NCBI RefSeq assembly: GCF_900113245.1
Contig: NZ_FOOQ01000002.1
Location: 718,881-782,880 of the forward strand
From: Halopelagius inordinatus
GTDB lineage: Archaea; Halobacteriota; Halobacteria; Halobacteriales; Haloferacaceae
DNA length: 64,000 nucleotides
Direction: 5' to 3'
Below the pieces are notes generated by a model, which worked only from the letters and a program-made list of their open reading frames with translations, did no database searches and had not been told where the DNA came from. Positions 9,989 through 14,654 of the stretch are shown piece after piece (the stretch's first letter is position 1; each line of letters opens with the position of its first letter). The position numbers and the translations under genes were made by a program.

Positions 9989-11929
9989 ATGACAGAATTA
10001 GGTGGATTCCAGGACCACGTGGCGCGAGTGGACCTCTCGACGGGGGACGTGCGCTACGAGGGCATCGACGACGAGGACGCGAAAAAGTACATCGGGGCGC
10101 GAGGGCTCGGCGTCAAGTACGTGTTCGATCAGGGGCCGGAGGTTGACCCGTTGGGGCCGGACAACCTCCTCGCGTTCATGAACGGCCCGCTGACGGGGAC
10201 ACAGGCTCCGATGAGCGGTCGCATCGCCGTCTGTACGAAATCGCCCCTGACGGGGACGGTGACGGACTCGCACCACGGCGGGTGGTCCGGGGCGCGACTC
10301 AAGTGGTCGGGCTTCGACGGCCTCCTGTTCGAGGGGCGGGCGGACGAACCCGTCTACGCCGTCGTCGAAGACGGCGAAGTCGAACTCCACGACGCCTCGC
10401 ATCTGTGGGGGAAAGGCATCCACGAGACGCGAGACCGACTCGAAGAGGACCACGAGGGGTCGTACGGCAAGAACATGAGCATGATGGCCATCGGTCCCGG
10501 CGGCGAGAATCAGGTCCGCTACGCCTGCATCATAAACGAAGACGACAGAGCCTCCGGACGCGGCGGCACGGGCGGCGTCATGGGGTCGAAGAACCTCAAG
10601 GCCATCGTCATCAAGTCGGGAACGAAGATGCCAAAGCCCGCGGACGCCGAGACGTTCACCGAAGGCTACCAGCAGGCGATGCAACTCATCACCGAGTCCG
10701 ACGTCACTGCCCCCAACGAGGGCGGCCTCTCGCTTTACGGTACGAACGTCCTGATGAACCTGACCGAGGAGATGGACGGACTCCCGGTCCGCAACGGGAA
10801 GTTCACCTCCGGTCACAGCGAGGCCGAGGCGATGCCCGACGACGTGAACGTAGACCCGGAGGGCGTCTCCGGGGAGAACGTCCGCGAGAACATCCTCGTT
10901 GACGAACCGACGTGTCACTCCTGTCCGGTCGCCTGTAAGAAAGAGACCGAAGTCACCATCGAACGCAAGGGTGAGGAACTGAACGTCCGCGGCGAGTCCT
11001 ACGAGTACGAGTCGGCGTACGCCCTCGGTCCGAACTCGATGAACGACGACCGCGACAAGATAGCGGTCATGATCGACATGTGCAACGACCTCGGCATCGA
11101 CACCATCGAGGCGGGCAACATGATCGCGATGGCGATGGAGATGACCGAGGAGGGCAAACTCGACGACTTGGGCGAAGGGATAGAGTGGGGCGACGTGGAC
11201 CACATGATGGACGTGATAGAGGACATCGCCCACCGCGAAACCGAACTCGGCGACCTCCTCGCGGAGGGCGCGCGACGCATCGCGGAACGACACGACGCCC
11301 ACGACAACCGGTTGGACGTCAAGGGCCAGACCATCGCCGCCTACGACCCCCGTTGCATGAAGGGGATGGGCATCGGCTACGCCACCTCGAACCGCGGGGC
11401 GTGTCACCTTCGCGGTTACACGCCGTCCGCGGAGATTCTCGGCATCCCGGAGAAAGTCGATCCCTACGAGTGGGAGGGCAAAGGCGAACTGTGCGCCCTC
11501 TTCCAGGACATGCACGCCATCTCCGACAGTTTCGACATCTGCAAGTTCAACGCCTTCGCGGAGGGCATAGAGGAGTACGTCAACCAGTACAACGGCATGA
11601 CCGGCCGTGACGTGACCGAAGACGAACTGATGGAGACGGGCGACCGCATCTACACGCTCGAACGCTACTACAACAACCTCGCGGGCTTCGACGGGTCCGA
11701 CGACTCGCTTCCGAACCGGTTCGTCGAGGGCGACAACGCCATGCCCGGACAGGGGGCCTCCGAGGGCCAACTGTGCGAACTCGACCAGATGAAAGAAGAG
11801 TACTACGAGCGACGCGGGTGGGTCGACGGCGTCGTTCCGGACGAACGCCTCGAAGAACTCGGCATCGACATCGGCCCCGGAACCGGCGTCTCGCGCGGCA
11901 GTGGCGGCGCGACACCCGCGGACGACTGA
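9989..11929 (+). CDS. aor: Aldehyde ferredoxin oxidoreductase (tungsten enzyme)
   Basis: Oxidises aldehydes to carboxylic acids with ferredoxin as electron acceptor, using a tungsten-bispterin centre and one [4Fe-4S] cluster. The 646-residue length is in the family range (about 600). N-terminal pterin-binding blocks include GARGLGVKYVFDQ, PLTGTQAPMSGR and KSPLTGTVTDSHHGG. The cluster ligands fit Cys309, Cys312 and Cys316 (CHSCPVAC) with the late Cys518 (SFDICKF). The sequence does not fix the preferred aldehyde. It lies near a MoaD/SAMP-like gene (13926-14204), which may help make its cofactor. The stop region is duplicated in tandem. Confidence 0.93.
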   Translation: MTELGGFQDHVARVDLSTGDVRYEGIDDEDAKKYIGARGLGVKYVFDQGPEVDPLGPDNLLAFMNGPLTGTQAPMSGRIAVCTKSPLTGTVTDSHHGGWSGARLKWSGFDGLLFEGRADEPVYAVVEDGEVELHDASHLWGKGIHETRDRLEEDHEGSYGKNMSMMAIGPGGENQVRYACIINEDDRASGRGGTGGVMGSKNLKAIVIKSGTKMPKPADAETFTEGYQQAMQLITESDVTAPNEGGLSLYGTNVLMNLTEEMDGLPVRNGKFTSGHSEAEAMPDDVNVDPEGVSGENVRENILVDEPTCHSCPVACKKETEVTIERKGEELNVRGESYEYESAYALGPNSMNDDRDKIAVMIDMCNDLGIDTIEAGNMIAMAMEMTEEGKLDDLGEGIEWGDVDHMMDVIEDIAHRETELGDLLAEGARRIAERHDAHDNRLDVKGQTIAAYDPRCMKGMGIGYATSNRGACHLRGYTPSAEILGIPEKVDPYEWEGKGELCALFQDMHAISDSFDICKFNAFAEGIEEYVNQYNGMTGRDVTEDELMETGDRIYTLERYYNNLAGFDGSDDSLPNRFVEGDNAMPGQGASEGQLCELDQMKEEYYERRGWVDGVVPDERLEELGIDIGPGTGVSRGSGGATPADD

Positions 11930-12092: not shown

Positions 12093-12434
12093 TCAGACGA
12101 CGAACCGCAGAAGCCAAAGCGTCGCCATCCCGACGGAGATGGTGACGAGGATGCTCTCTTTTACGTACCACGTCGCGACGGCGGCGACGACGCCCGCGAC
12201 GAGACGCTCGTTTCCGGGCGTGACGGCGACGGAACCGTCGACGATGACAAGAGAGGGCGCGACGAGGGCGGCGAACACCGCGGGCGGGACATATCGGAGT
12301 GCGCGCATGGCCGGTTCGGGTACCTCGTCGATTCGACCGAACAGGTAGACGAACGACCCCCGGATGGCGAACGTCGCGACGCCGGCGGCGAGGATGACGG
12401 CCCAGATGGAGAGCGGTCCGTACTCCGTCGGCAT
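12093..12434 (-). CDS. azlD: AzlD-type branched-chain amino acid transport subunit
   Basis: A 113-residue protein of about four transmembrane helices matching the AzlD family: AIRGSFVYLFGR early, then a conserved ALRYVPPAVFAALVAP block. AzlD is the small partner of the AzlC permease in branched-chain amino acid export. The azlC gene lies immediately upstream and its stop overlaps this start as ATGA, so the two are co-translated. The substrate is inferred from the bacterial family. Confidence 0.88.
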   Translation of the reverse strand: MPTEYGPLSIWAVILAAGVATFAIRGSFVYLFGRIDEVPEPAMRALRYVPPAVFAALVAPSLVIVDGSVAVTPGNERLVAGVVAAVATWYVKESILVTISVGMATLWLLRFVV

Positions 12435-13168
12435 CAGGACTCCACCTCCGTGGGGTCAGCGTCCGAGACGCCGCCGGTGAGTGTTTCGGTGACCACGCCG
12501 GCGACGACGCCCGCAGCGGCGCCGACCATCAGACCGAGATTGAACGGGAGGGACAGAGCGTCGCCGACGACGGCGACGGACCCTCCGACTGCCGCCGCGG
12601 ACACCGCAGGCGGGTTCGAGACGACGGGAACCAAGAGGCCGAGAAAGACGAGCGGAACGGCGAACTCGAGCCCCCACGAGGCGGGGACGCCCGTCCCGAG
12701 GAGGACGCCCGCGACGGTGCACACCTGCCAGACGCTCCAGATGAAAAACCCCGCGCCGACGAAGTACCGGCGGCGCGCGTCGGAGTCGAGTTCGTCGTTC
12801 GCGTATCGAGCGATAGCGAGAGCGTACGCTTGGTCCGTCAGCACGTACGAACAGAGCGCCTTCCACCGACTGCGGAACGACCGGAAGTACGGGGCGATGG
12901 ACGCCGAGTACATCGACATCCGGAGGTTGATGACGAGTGCCGTGACGAAGACGACGGCGAGTTCGGCGTTTCTGCCGAGGAGGTCGATAGCGGCCAACTG
13001 GGAGGTGCCCGCGAAGACGAAGACGGAGAGTCCCACGGCCTGCGAAAACGTGAGACCGGCCTCGACGGCGGCCACGCCCGAGACGAGACCGAACGGCACG
13101 AGTCCCAACGCTATGGGCGCGGCGTCGCGGACGCCGCGGCGGACCTCCGGCGGGACGGGGAGGGTCAT
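12434..13168 (-). CDS. azlC: AzlC-type branched-chain amino acid permease
   Basis: A 244-residue polytopic membrane protein with the AzlC pattern: VRDAAPIALGLVPFGLVSG at the start, FAGTSQLAAIDLLG in the middle and MYSASIAPYFR after it. It forms the large subunit of an amino acid exporter with the overlapping azlD gene. Starts at ATG 13168. Haloarchaea use such pairs for amino acid efflux, but the substrate here is inferred from the family only. Confidence 0.9.
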   Translation of the reverse strand: MTLPVPPEVRRGVRDAAPIALGLVPFGLVSGVAAVEAGLTFSQAVGLSVFVFAGTSQLAAIDLLGRNAELAVVFVTALVINLRMSMYSASIAPYFRSFRSRWKALCSYVLTDQAYALAIARYANDELDSDARRRYFVGAGFFIWSVWQVCTVAGVLLGTGVPASWGLEFAVPLVFLGLLVPVVSNPPAVSAAAVGGSVAVVGDALSLPFNLGLMVGAAAGVVAGVVTETLTGGVSDADPTEVES

Positions 13169-13255: not shown

Positions 13256-13645
13256 CTACGTCGAGTCGCGACCGACGACGAGAGCCTCGCGGATTTCGAG
13301 TGCCGTGACGAACTCCTCTCTCCGATCGGTCTTCGACCCGATTCGCCGCAGTTGTTGACCGTGGGCGCGCCTGAGTGCGTCCGCCTCGCGGGACTCCAAG
13401 TCGAGTTCCGCACCCACCTCCGTCCAGAAGTCGGTGGAGACGAGAAAGACGACGCGTTCGCCGTCGTCGTAGACGGTTTCGTAGGCGCGTTCGTACTCGT
13501 CGAGACGAGAAACGAGACGTCGCTGCGCCCGGCGGACGAGTTCGGGGAGTCTGTCGGGAGAGACGCTGGCTTTCGCCCCCGCGAGGACGAGAACGTCGCC
13601 GTCGAGGGGCAGGTCGCCCGACCGCTCTGTGACATCCTCGCTCAC
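13256..13645 (-). CDS. Unknown haloarchaeal protein in the SAMP/MoaD operon
   Basis: A 129-residue acidic/basic mixed soluble protein from GTG 13645. Predicted mostly helical in the middle (residues about 30-60, RLPELVRRAQRRLVSRLDEYERAYE), with a YETVYDDGERVVFLVSTDFW strand pair and a helical C-terminus. No catalytic motif or membrane segment is seen. Its start lies two bases after the stop of the 91-residue gene, so it is the third gene of an operon headed by a MoaD/SAMP-like protein. I do not recognise the family. Confidence 0.75.
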   Translation of the reverse strand: MSEDVTERSGDLPLDGDVLVLAGAKASVSPDRLPELVRRAQRRLVSRLDEYERAYETVYDDGERVVFLVSTDFWTEVGAELDLESREADALRRAHGQQLRRIGSKTDRREEFVTALEIREALVVGRDST

Positions 13646-13647
13646 GA

Positions 13648-13923
13648 TTACCCTCCGGCGCGCATCGCCTTCTGCGAGAAGCGGTCGACGAGTTCGTCCA
13701 GCACCTCGGGGTCGCCCTCGAACGACACTGTCACCTCGGTGAGCGACATCGTCGGTCCGATGGACACCTTCTCGGTGGCGAGCGTCGCCCGCCAGTCGTC
13801 GGCGACGACGGTGTCTTCGTCTGCCTCTCTGCCGCCGAGGTTTCCGAGGTAGTGTCTGGCGAGTCGCTTGGAGATGCCTCGAAACGACTTCTCGCGCGTG
13901 ACCCTCGTCGCGTCGTCGGACAC
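13648..13923 (-). CDS. Small protein with C-terminal diglycine, partner of the MoaD/SAMP gene
   Basis: A 91-residue protein from GTG 13923 that ends ...RAGG, so it has a bare C-terminal Gly-Gly like ubiquitin-fold modifiers and sulfur carriers. The N-terminal half (VTREKSFRGISKRLARHYLGN) is basic and helical; the C-terminal half (MSLTEVTVSFEGDPEVLDELVDRFSQKAM) looks like a strand-helix unit. It lies two bases after the stop of the MoaD-like gene and two before the next start. It is too unlike known beta-grasp proteins to call a modifier on sequence alone. Unknown function. Confidence 0.75.
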   Translation of the reverse strand: MSDDATRVTREKSFRGISKRLARHYLGNLGGREADEDTVVADDWRATLATEKVSIGPTMSLTEVTVSFEGDPEVLDELVDRFSQKAMRAGG

Positions 13924-13925
13924 GG

Positions 13926-14204
13926 CTACCCCCCCGCGACGGGCGGAAACACGCTGAGCGTGTCGCCCGGGTCGAACCGCGTCTCCAACCCGTCTTGGTA
14001 CTCGACGTCTCGTCCGTTCCGGAGCACGTTCACCTGCGAACGGACGCGTCCGTCTTCGAGCAACTGCCCCGAGAGGCCGTCGAACTCCGTTTCGAGAGCG
14101 CGGAGGGCGTCGCCGACGGTGGCGTCCTCGGCGTACTCGCGTTCGATCGTCTTCGACCCGACGGCCTCGCGAAACGTCGCGAAGAACCGTAACTCCACAT
14201 CCAT
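13926..14204 (-). CDS. MoaD/ThiS-family small archaeal modifier protein (SAMP-like)
   Basis: A 92-residue beta-grasp protein from ATG 14204 that ends VFPPVAGG, the diglycine tail activated as a C-terminal adenylate or thiocarboxylate. Family marks are MDVELRFFATFREAVGSKT, DATVGDALRAL and VNVLRNGRDVEY. Such proteins act as MoaD in molybdopterin synthase or as SAMP protein modifiers; from memory the sequence resembles haloarchaeal SAMP3 more than SAMP1 or SAMP2. First gene of a tightly packed three-gene operon. A link to the nearby aldehyde oxidoreductase through the pterin cofactor is plausible but not shown. Confidence 0.88.
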   Translation of the reverse strand: MDVELRFFATFREAVGSKTIEREYAEDATVGDALRALETEFDGLSGQLLEDGRVRSQVNVLRNGRDVEYQDGLETRFDPGDTLSVFPPVAGG

Positions 14205-14252: not shown

Positions 14253-14654
14253 TCAGCGCTTTCCGAACCGGATGCCGTCTTCGACGAGGCGGTAGTTTCG
14301 CTCCCGGTCTATGTGTTCTGCCAGCCACTCGTGTTCGTGAATCTGCATGACGAGATCGGCCTGCAGGTTGCGCCACGCGATGGCGTATATCGGCGACTGT
14401 CCCCACGCGCGGAGTTCGGGGACGAACTCGTCGTACGTCTCCATTCGGTCTTCGAGATGTTCGACGAAGTCGACGACGTGACCCGCCGCCTGCGCGTCGC
14501 TTTCGGCGCTCACGAGCAGTTGGTTCAGTCGCGATTCGAGGCCTTCGACTGCTCGCTTCATATCCGCTTTCGCGCTGCCGCCGTCCTCGGGGAGCGAGTC
14601 GAGTATCTGCTGGGGAACGCCCAACGAGAGTTCTCGCTCGGTGTCGTCTACCAT
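14253..14654 (-). CDS. Unknown haloarchaeal helical protein
   Basis: A 133-residue soluble protein from ATG 14654; a longer reading from 14675 uses a weak start. It appears all-helical and acidic, with a region HVVDFVEHLEDRMETYDEF and a Trp/His-rich C-terminal half (AIAWRNLQADLVMQIHEHEWLAEHI). The charged His and Glu positions could bind metal, but no known motif fits. It lies upstream of the MoaD/SAMP operon on the same strand, about 50 bases away. Not recognised. Confidence 0.7.
   Translation of the reverse strand: MVDDTERELSLGVPQQILDSLPEDGGSAKADMKRAVEGLESRLNQLLVSAESDAQAAGHVVDFVEHLEDRMETYDEFVPELRAWGQSPIYAIAWRNLQADLVMQIHEHEWLAEHIDRERNYRLVEDGIRFGKR

Follow-up and report, generated by a model that had tools for sequence, protein, structure and literature searches.

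A gene cluster with two Gly-Gly-ended proteins

The window, by which we mean the whole stretch of 64,000 nucleotides analysed here (Halopelagius inordinatus, NCBI RefSeq assembly GCF_900113245.1, contig NZ_FOOQ01000002.1, positions 718,881 to 782,880 of the forward strand), contains a small gene packed between a MoaD-type carrier gene and a third small gene. We refer to the small gene and its product as the middle gene and the middle protein. The features are as follows.

14654-14253, minus strand: conserved small protein encoded upstream of the SAMP3 gene, recurring in other loci; probably one of arCOG06307 and arCOG06309
14204-13926, minus strand: SAMP3, a MoaD-type beta-grasp carrier (HVO_2177 orthologue), 92 aa, ends FPPVAGG and stop
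13923-13648, minus strand: middle gene, TBP-like/DUF1952-like protein (probable arCOG06308), GTG start, 91 aa, ends FSQKAMRAGG and stop
13651..13671, minus strand: conserved tail codons of the middle gene, K85-A-M-R-A-G-G91, then a TAA stop; K85, A86, R88, G90 and G91 are invariant
13645-13256, minus strand: third gene, conserved small protein, 129 aa, ends GRDST and stop; probably the other of arCOG06307 and arCOG06309
12434-13168, minus strand: AzlC-family transporter subunit (family match), between the cluster and AOR
12093-12434, minus strand: AzlD-family transporter subunit (family match)
9989-11929, plus strand: aldehyde ferredoxin oxidoreductase (AOR) with AFOR_N and AFOR_C (family match); co-occurs with the middle gene

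The SAMP3 gene and the middle gene are separated by 2 bp, as are the middle gene and the third gene, and SAMP3 and the middle protein each end in Gly-Gly followed by a stop. An earlier note on this DNA had described a gene of 91 residues, two bases from both neighbours and ending in a bare Gly-Gly; the coordinates and the stop codon confirm this description. In most loci, the SAMP3/middle pair is flanked by two conserved small genes (13256-13645 and 14253-14654 in the window). The protein encoded at 14253-14654 gave no family match over its cut-off. The third gene (13256-13645) gave no family match either; its model (pLDDT 83) had a best fold match of Z 5.5, which is unconvincing, and the C-terminal end is not fixed among its homologues. 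The azlC gene is present in many SAMP3/middle loci and absent from some. The genome that contains the window encodes one UbaA, one MoaE and two JAMM proteins.

The MoaD-like neighbour is closest to PDB entry 2m19 (E 2.9e-34, 58 of 92 residues identical), which we take to be HVO_2177 of Haloferax volcanii, and it also matches ThiS (E 3.7e-16). HVO_2178 adjoins HVO_2177 and is among the listed Hfx. volcanii Ubl candidates. HVO_2177 is SAMP3 (PMC4500146). In one locus (L096), the SAMP is identical to 2m19 at 91 of 92 residues, and a Haloferax-type middle gene lies beside this SAMP3 gene. It was ruled out that the neighbour is SAMP1: the SAMP1 orthologue of this genome is encoded elsewhere (L002; match to 3po0, E 1.5e-28). 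The SAMP1 equivalog model of NCBIfam scores both SAMP1 and SAMP3 orthologues, including the gene at 13926-14204. Therefore, a SAMP1 label is not decisive, and public annotation labels SAMP3 as SAMP1. Close to one SAMP3 cluster, a gene with a weak MoaD-like match (L070:4011-4277:+, E 0.01) ends in Cys-Cys (MFPFIFCC), which recalls the CC-ended beta-grasp group arCOG00539 (PMC2948915).

A family of this kind has been described. Makarova and Koonin (2010) screened for C-terminal GG and reported arCOG06308, a Halobacteria-only family with a TBP-like fold, encoded beside the MoaD-like Ubl arCOG00536 and two uncharacterized small proteins, arCOG06307 and arCOG06309; they put it forward as a putative counterpart of Ubl proteins in function (PMC2948915). 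Like the middle protein, arCOG06308 is found in Halobacteria only, is shorter than 200 aa, and has a TBP-like fold, a C-terminal GG and a MoaD neighbour. Judged by this description, the middle protein very probably belongs to arCOG06308 (family reference GI 76801892). In the literature searched, no further mention of an arCOG06308-type family was found. The 2010 text differs from the present account in that it does not link the family to AOR, assign the carrier to SAMP3, or mention SAMP3 fusions or a Thermus homologue. What is new here is the co-occurrence with AOR, the identity of the carrier as SAMP3, the homology to the Thermus protein and DUF1952, the haloarchaeal fusions, the Pro-Gly paralogues, and the finding that the GG of SAMP3 is often buried whereas that of its partner never is. 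According to Makarova and Koonin (PMC2948915), fusion of TBP-like GG domains to E1 is frequent; inspected by eye, the UbaA of the window genome had no such TBP-like extension at its end.

Conservation of the C-terminal end

Of 148 genomes from the same family, 125 encode a homologue of the middle protein; for the same order (Halobacteriales), the figure is 132 of 195. Nearly all of these homologues align through the final residue. In the phylum samples drawn, no homologue outside Halobacteriales was found at E 1e-3, and the marginal matches had E 0.03. Single and profile searches of the middle protein against Pfam, NCBIfam and PDB sequences gave no match.

The earlier note had asked whether homologues keep the C-terminal Gly-Gly or extend past it; within Halobacteria, the SAMP-linked group keeps it without extension. 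The non-redundant homologues of the GG group were gathered as GG-ending sequences; with the stop codon read, all 74 end in K-A-[MIV]-R-[AS]-G-G-stop and none is extended. At both tail glycine positions GGA, GGC, GGG and GGT are all used, and the stop that follows may be TAA, TAG or TGA. Because all glycine codons and all three stops are in use, selection acts on both the tail residues and the position of the end. A chance Gly-Gly end is ruled out by the complete conservation together with the use of all codons. The homologues without a GG end in the same set of loci (12 sequences) comprise a distinct group of paralogues that have no SAMP neighbour, and fragments. In an alignment of 51 middle proteins, only R15, Y25, L26, W44, K85, A86, R88, G90 and G91 are invariant, so the last seven residues hold five of the nine invariant columns. 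By these comparisons, the Gly-Gly of the middle protein is conserved and functional-looking.

The paralogue group (L080-L084, L086, L089-L091 and L105; for example, L080:3028-3297:-) has no adjoining SAMP gene. Its members are about 115 aa long with an N-terminal extension, and end in KAFRAPG, KTFRAPG or KTFRASG before the stop. Thus, the first tail glycine is replaced by proline, and once by serine (Arg-Ala-Ser-Gly). One further paralogue (L085) runs on beyond the tail. A search for conserved neighbours of the Pro-Gly paralogues found none. Because these paralogues keep the tail with a single change, the precise end matters in both groups, and the Gly-Gly itself is specific to the group linked to SAMP3 and AOR. 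In one genus (g24), there are extra stand-alone copies of the middle gene that end in KAMRAGG (L135:6937-7209, L136:7098-7370 and L137:7166-7438), with no SAMP3 or AOR gene within about 7 kb.

The end of SAMP3 behaves differently. In 49 of 86 loci, the GG of SAMP3 is followed by 1-47 residues or runs into the middle protein; orthologues with 1-47 additional residues are found in L006-L008, L011-L014, L040 and others. Such a GG would need trimming before activation. In contrast, the middle protein never continues beyond its GG. The terminus of SAMP3 is thus movable and that of its partner fixed, a contrast that is described here for the first time.

Predicted fold and fusion with SAMP3

An AlphaFold2 model of the middle protein, based on the protein of the window together with seven relatives, reached pLDDT 88. 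Its elements follow the order beta-alpha-beta-beta-beta-alpha, and the last helix comprises residues 72-90. The top match of the model among solved structures is the C-terminal DUF1952 domain of a MoaD related protein from Thermus thermophilus, 1v8c (residues 85-165; Z 12.2, with 81 residues superposed at an rmsd of 1.8 A). Matches to unrelated helix-grip and TBP-like folds, such as START/Bet v1 and KA1, had Z 8.5 and below. In hhalign, the middle protein and the C-terminal domain of 1v8c were aligned with a probability of 88 and P 3e-6. There was no match to the ThiS family. The modelled fold is therefore not beta-grasp. The earlier note's impression that the protein does not look like a beta-grasp protein is thus upheld by structure prediction, both in the topology of the model and in its best match to a non-beta-grasp domain. 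The Pfam model of DUF1952 (PF09189) did not match the middle protein, nor anything at its genome position at E 10. This was counted against the DUF1952 reading. Because PF09189 misses the haloarchaeal proteins, the relationship is one of distant homology and not of Pfam membership.

The other domain of 1v8c, at the N-terminus, gives a match to the SAMP3/MoaD-like protein of the window (E 1.7e-13). Thus, 1v8c is a fusion of the two proteins that are encoded side by side in the window: a MoaD domain that ends in GG is followed by a TBP-like domain with another GG near the C-terminus (residues 166-167), after which there is one more residue (168). The Thermus protein differs from the haloarchaeal pair in that it is one polypeptide, shows only about 20% identity, carries this additional residue after its last GG and belongs to a domain family whose Pfam model misses the haloarchaeal protein. 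Among bacterial relatives, plasmid records gave no match that covers the C-terminal domain of 1v8c.

Fusion also occurs in haloarchaea. In at least 16 genomes of this group, one open frame encodes both SAMP3 and the middle protein (L044, L048, L051, L055, L077, L095, L099, L101 and L126-L133). These genomes belong to several families and genera, and the linkers after the internal VAGG range from a few to about 45 residues. Every fusion ends in K-A-x-R-A-G-G-stop, and one can be aligned with 1v8c over its whole length (residues 6-179 to 4-167). That the pair is fused both in Thermus and in several lineages of haloarchaea points more strongly than any other finding to joint action of the two proteins. 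The earlier note had suggested that the middle protein is a partner of its MoaD/SAMP neighbour; the 16 in-frame fusions, the two-domain Thermus homologue and strict co-occurrence support this partnership well.

Co-occurrence with AOR and a putative role of the middle protein

We compared the gene content of 195 Halobacteriales genomes. An AOR of the window type (at least 72% identity) is encoded in 128 of them, and all 128 possess the middle gene. In other words, the AOR accompanies the middle gene in 128 of 132 genomes and is found in 0 of the 63 that lack this gene (Fisher p 7e-47, a value that ignores relatedness and overstates independence). Four genomes have the middle gene and lack this AOR; they are 59-89% complete. 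The SAMP3-type carrier also tracks the middle gene: where the middle gene is present, the best E value for the carrier is 3.4e-23 or better, and where it is absent, 6.6e-20 or worse. Because Halobacteriales without the AOR are also without SAMP3, the AOR link and the SAMP3 link are inseparable, and co-occurrence with AOR does not fix the step served. MoaE is encoded in 190 of the 195 genomes, with or without the middle gene; it is therefore unlikely that the middle protein replaces MoaE.

From these results, we favour, with some confidence, the reading that the middle gene encodes a predicted stand-alone DUF1952-type domain, which would be a dedicated partner of SAMP3 in a haloarchaeal module serving one AOR, a Mo/W-bis-pterin enzyme. 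The middle protein is probably a dedicated helper in the assembly of the AOR cofactor rather than a new ubiquitin. In this scheme, UbaA would activate SAMP3 at SAMP3's own GG. The middle protein would bind SAMP3, as the fused domain would in Thermus and in the 16 haloarchaeal genomes, and we infer a comparable contact in genomes where the two are unfused. While the AOR cofactor is sulfurated or inserted, the K-A-x-R-A-G-G tip of the last helix might dock into SAMP3, UbaA, MoaE or AOR, or bind pterin or another anion. Where the GG of SAMP3 is buried by an extension or a fusion, a JAMM protease would free it.

Several known systems resemble parts of this scheme. In MoaD-MoaE fusions that are cleaved by JAMM proteases (DR2607 by DRJAMM, SAMP1-MoaE by HvJAMM1), the GG of MoaD is likewise buried by a downstream partner domain; here, however, the downstream domain is not MoaE and has its own terminal GG. 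DRJAMM cleaves MoaD-MoaE (PMC8832034), and HvJAMM1 frees linear SAMP1-MoaE fusions (PMC4443979). Thermococcus has MoaD genes linked to AOR (TK1065 beside an AOR gene, and TK2118 for the tungsten cofactor), so that a MoaD-type Ubl is tied to a tungsten oxidoreductase there too, although no such partner of the DUF1952 type is described for Thermococcus. That an archaeal MoaD-type Ubl serves the tungsten cofactor has been reported for Thermococcus (PMC11323500). SAMP3 cannot replace SAMP1 for DMSO reductase (PMC4443979). Because SAMP3 is not needed for this enzyme, it fits a carrier with a different client. In contrast, the stand-alone copies in genus g24, away from any SAMP3 gene, count against a dedicated partnership with SAMP3.

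Other explanations place the function in the Gly-Gly itself. MoaD and ThiS make their contacts with E1 through the beta-grasp fold. According to the earlier note's lead and the proposal of Makarova and Koonin (2010), the middle protein could be a non-beta-grasp modifier or sulfur carrier: UbaA would adenylate its C-terminal glycine, and a thiocarboxylate or a conjugate to lysine would then be formed. The invariant bare GG agrees with this idea, which was put forward for what appears to be the same family (PMC2948915). Moreover, in the 49 of 86 operons in which the GG of SAMP3 is extended or fused, the GG of the middle protein is the only free GG end. However, the predicted C-terminal helix reaches residue 90 and would leave a very short tail for the E1 active site, and a protein without the beta-grasp fold would not make E1 contacts of the MoaD/ThiS kind. 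Paralogues that end in Ala-Pro-Gly keep K-x-x-R-A-x-G with Pro-Gly or Ser-Gly for Gly-Gly, the Thermus homologue has a residue past its GG, and the middle gene follows AOR and not MoaE. We regard this explanation as rather unlikely. Quite unlikely is a version in which UbaA activates the C-terminus of the middle protein, which would then work in tandem with SAMP3 as a second sulfur carrier or modifier, structurally unrelated to SAMP3 and dedicated to one AOR, the fusions then being polyproteins with only the non-beta-grasp tail free; the helix at the end, the paralogues with Pro-Gly and the additional Thermus residue make activation of this glycine by UbaA less likely. SAMP3 and SAMP1 of Haloferax volcanii (HVO_2177, 2m19, for SAMP3) are also small proteins with a C-terminal GG, but they are beta-grasp proteins with demonstrated conjugation, whereas the middle protein has another fold and is known here from its sequence and a model.

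The same residues can be explained without chemistry at the glycine. K85, R88 and the terminal carboxylate may form a predicted site for pterin or another anion, with the GG only ending the helix. The invariant polar and aromatic residues R15, Y25, W44, K85 and R88 resemble a binding site, and paralogues without SAMP3 or AOR neighbours keep K-A/T-F-R-A-x-G-stop, with proline (once serine) for the first glycine. Such a site leaves unexplained why every member linked to SAMP3 and AOR has the exact GG whereas the other group has lost it, and we consider this explanation unlikely. Alternatively, the middle protein might be a dedicated target of SAMP3, which would be attached to the invariant K85 and turn the module on or off. 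A parallel is MoaE, whose active-site lysine is a site of SAMP1 and SAMP3 attachment. MoaE is a conjugation target of SAMP3, at K240 when demand is low (PMC4443979), and the fused forms place both proteins in one chain. Nevertheless, attachment at K85 leaves the conserved GG unexplained, and no sampylation of the middle protein was found in the literature searched. This last explanation seems very improbable.

If the reading of the cluster as an AOR-serving module is true, SAMP3 gains a primary job, in which it tracks one AOR together with the middle gene. The 2010 prediction of archaeal non-beta-grasp analogues of Ubl proteins becomes testable in a genetically tractable organism, and a purpose is suggested for the second, orphan domain of the MoaD-related protein from Thermus.

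As a separate observation, on three Haladaptatus plasmids (NZ_CP119783.1, NZ_CP119792.1 and NZ_CP120472.1) a match annotated as SAMP1 overlaps the feature of the AOR C-terminal domain, which may represent an AOR-MoaD arrangement.
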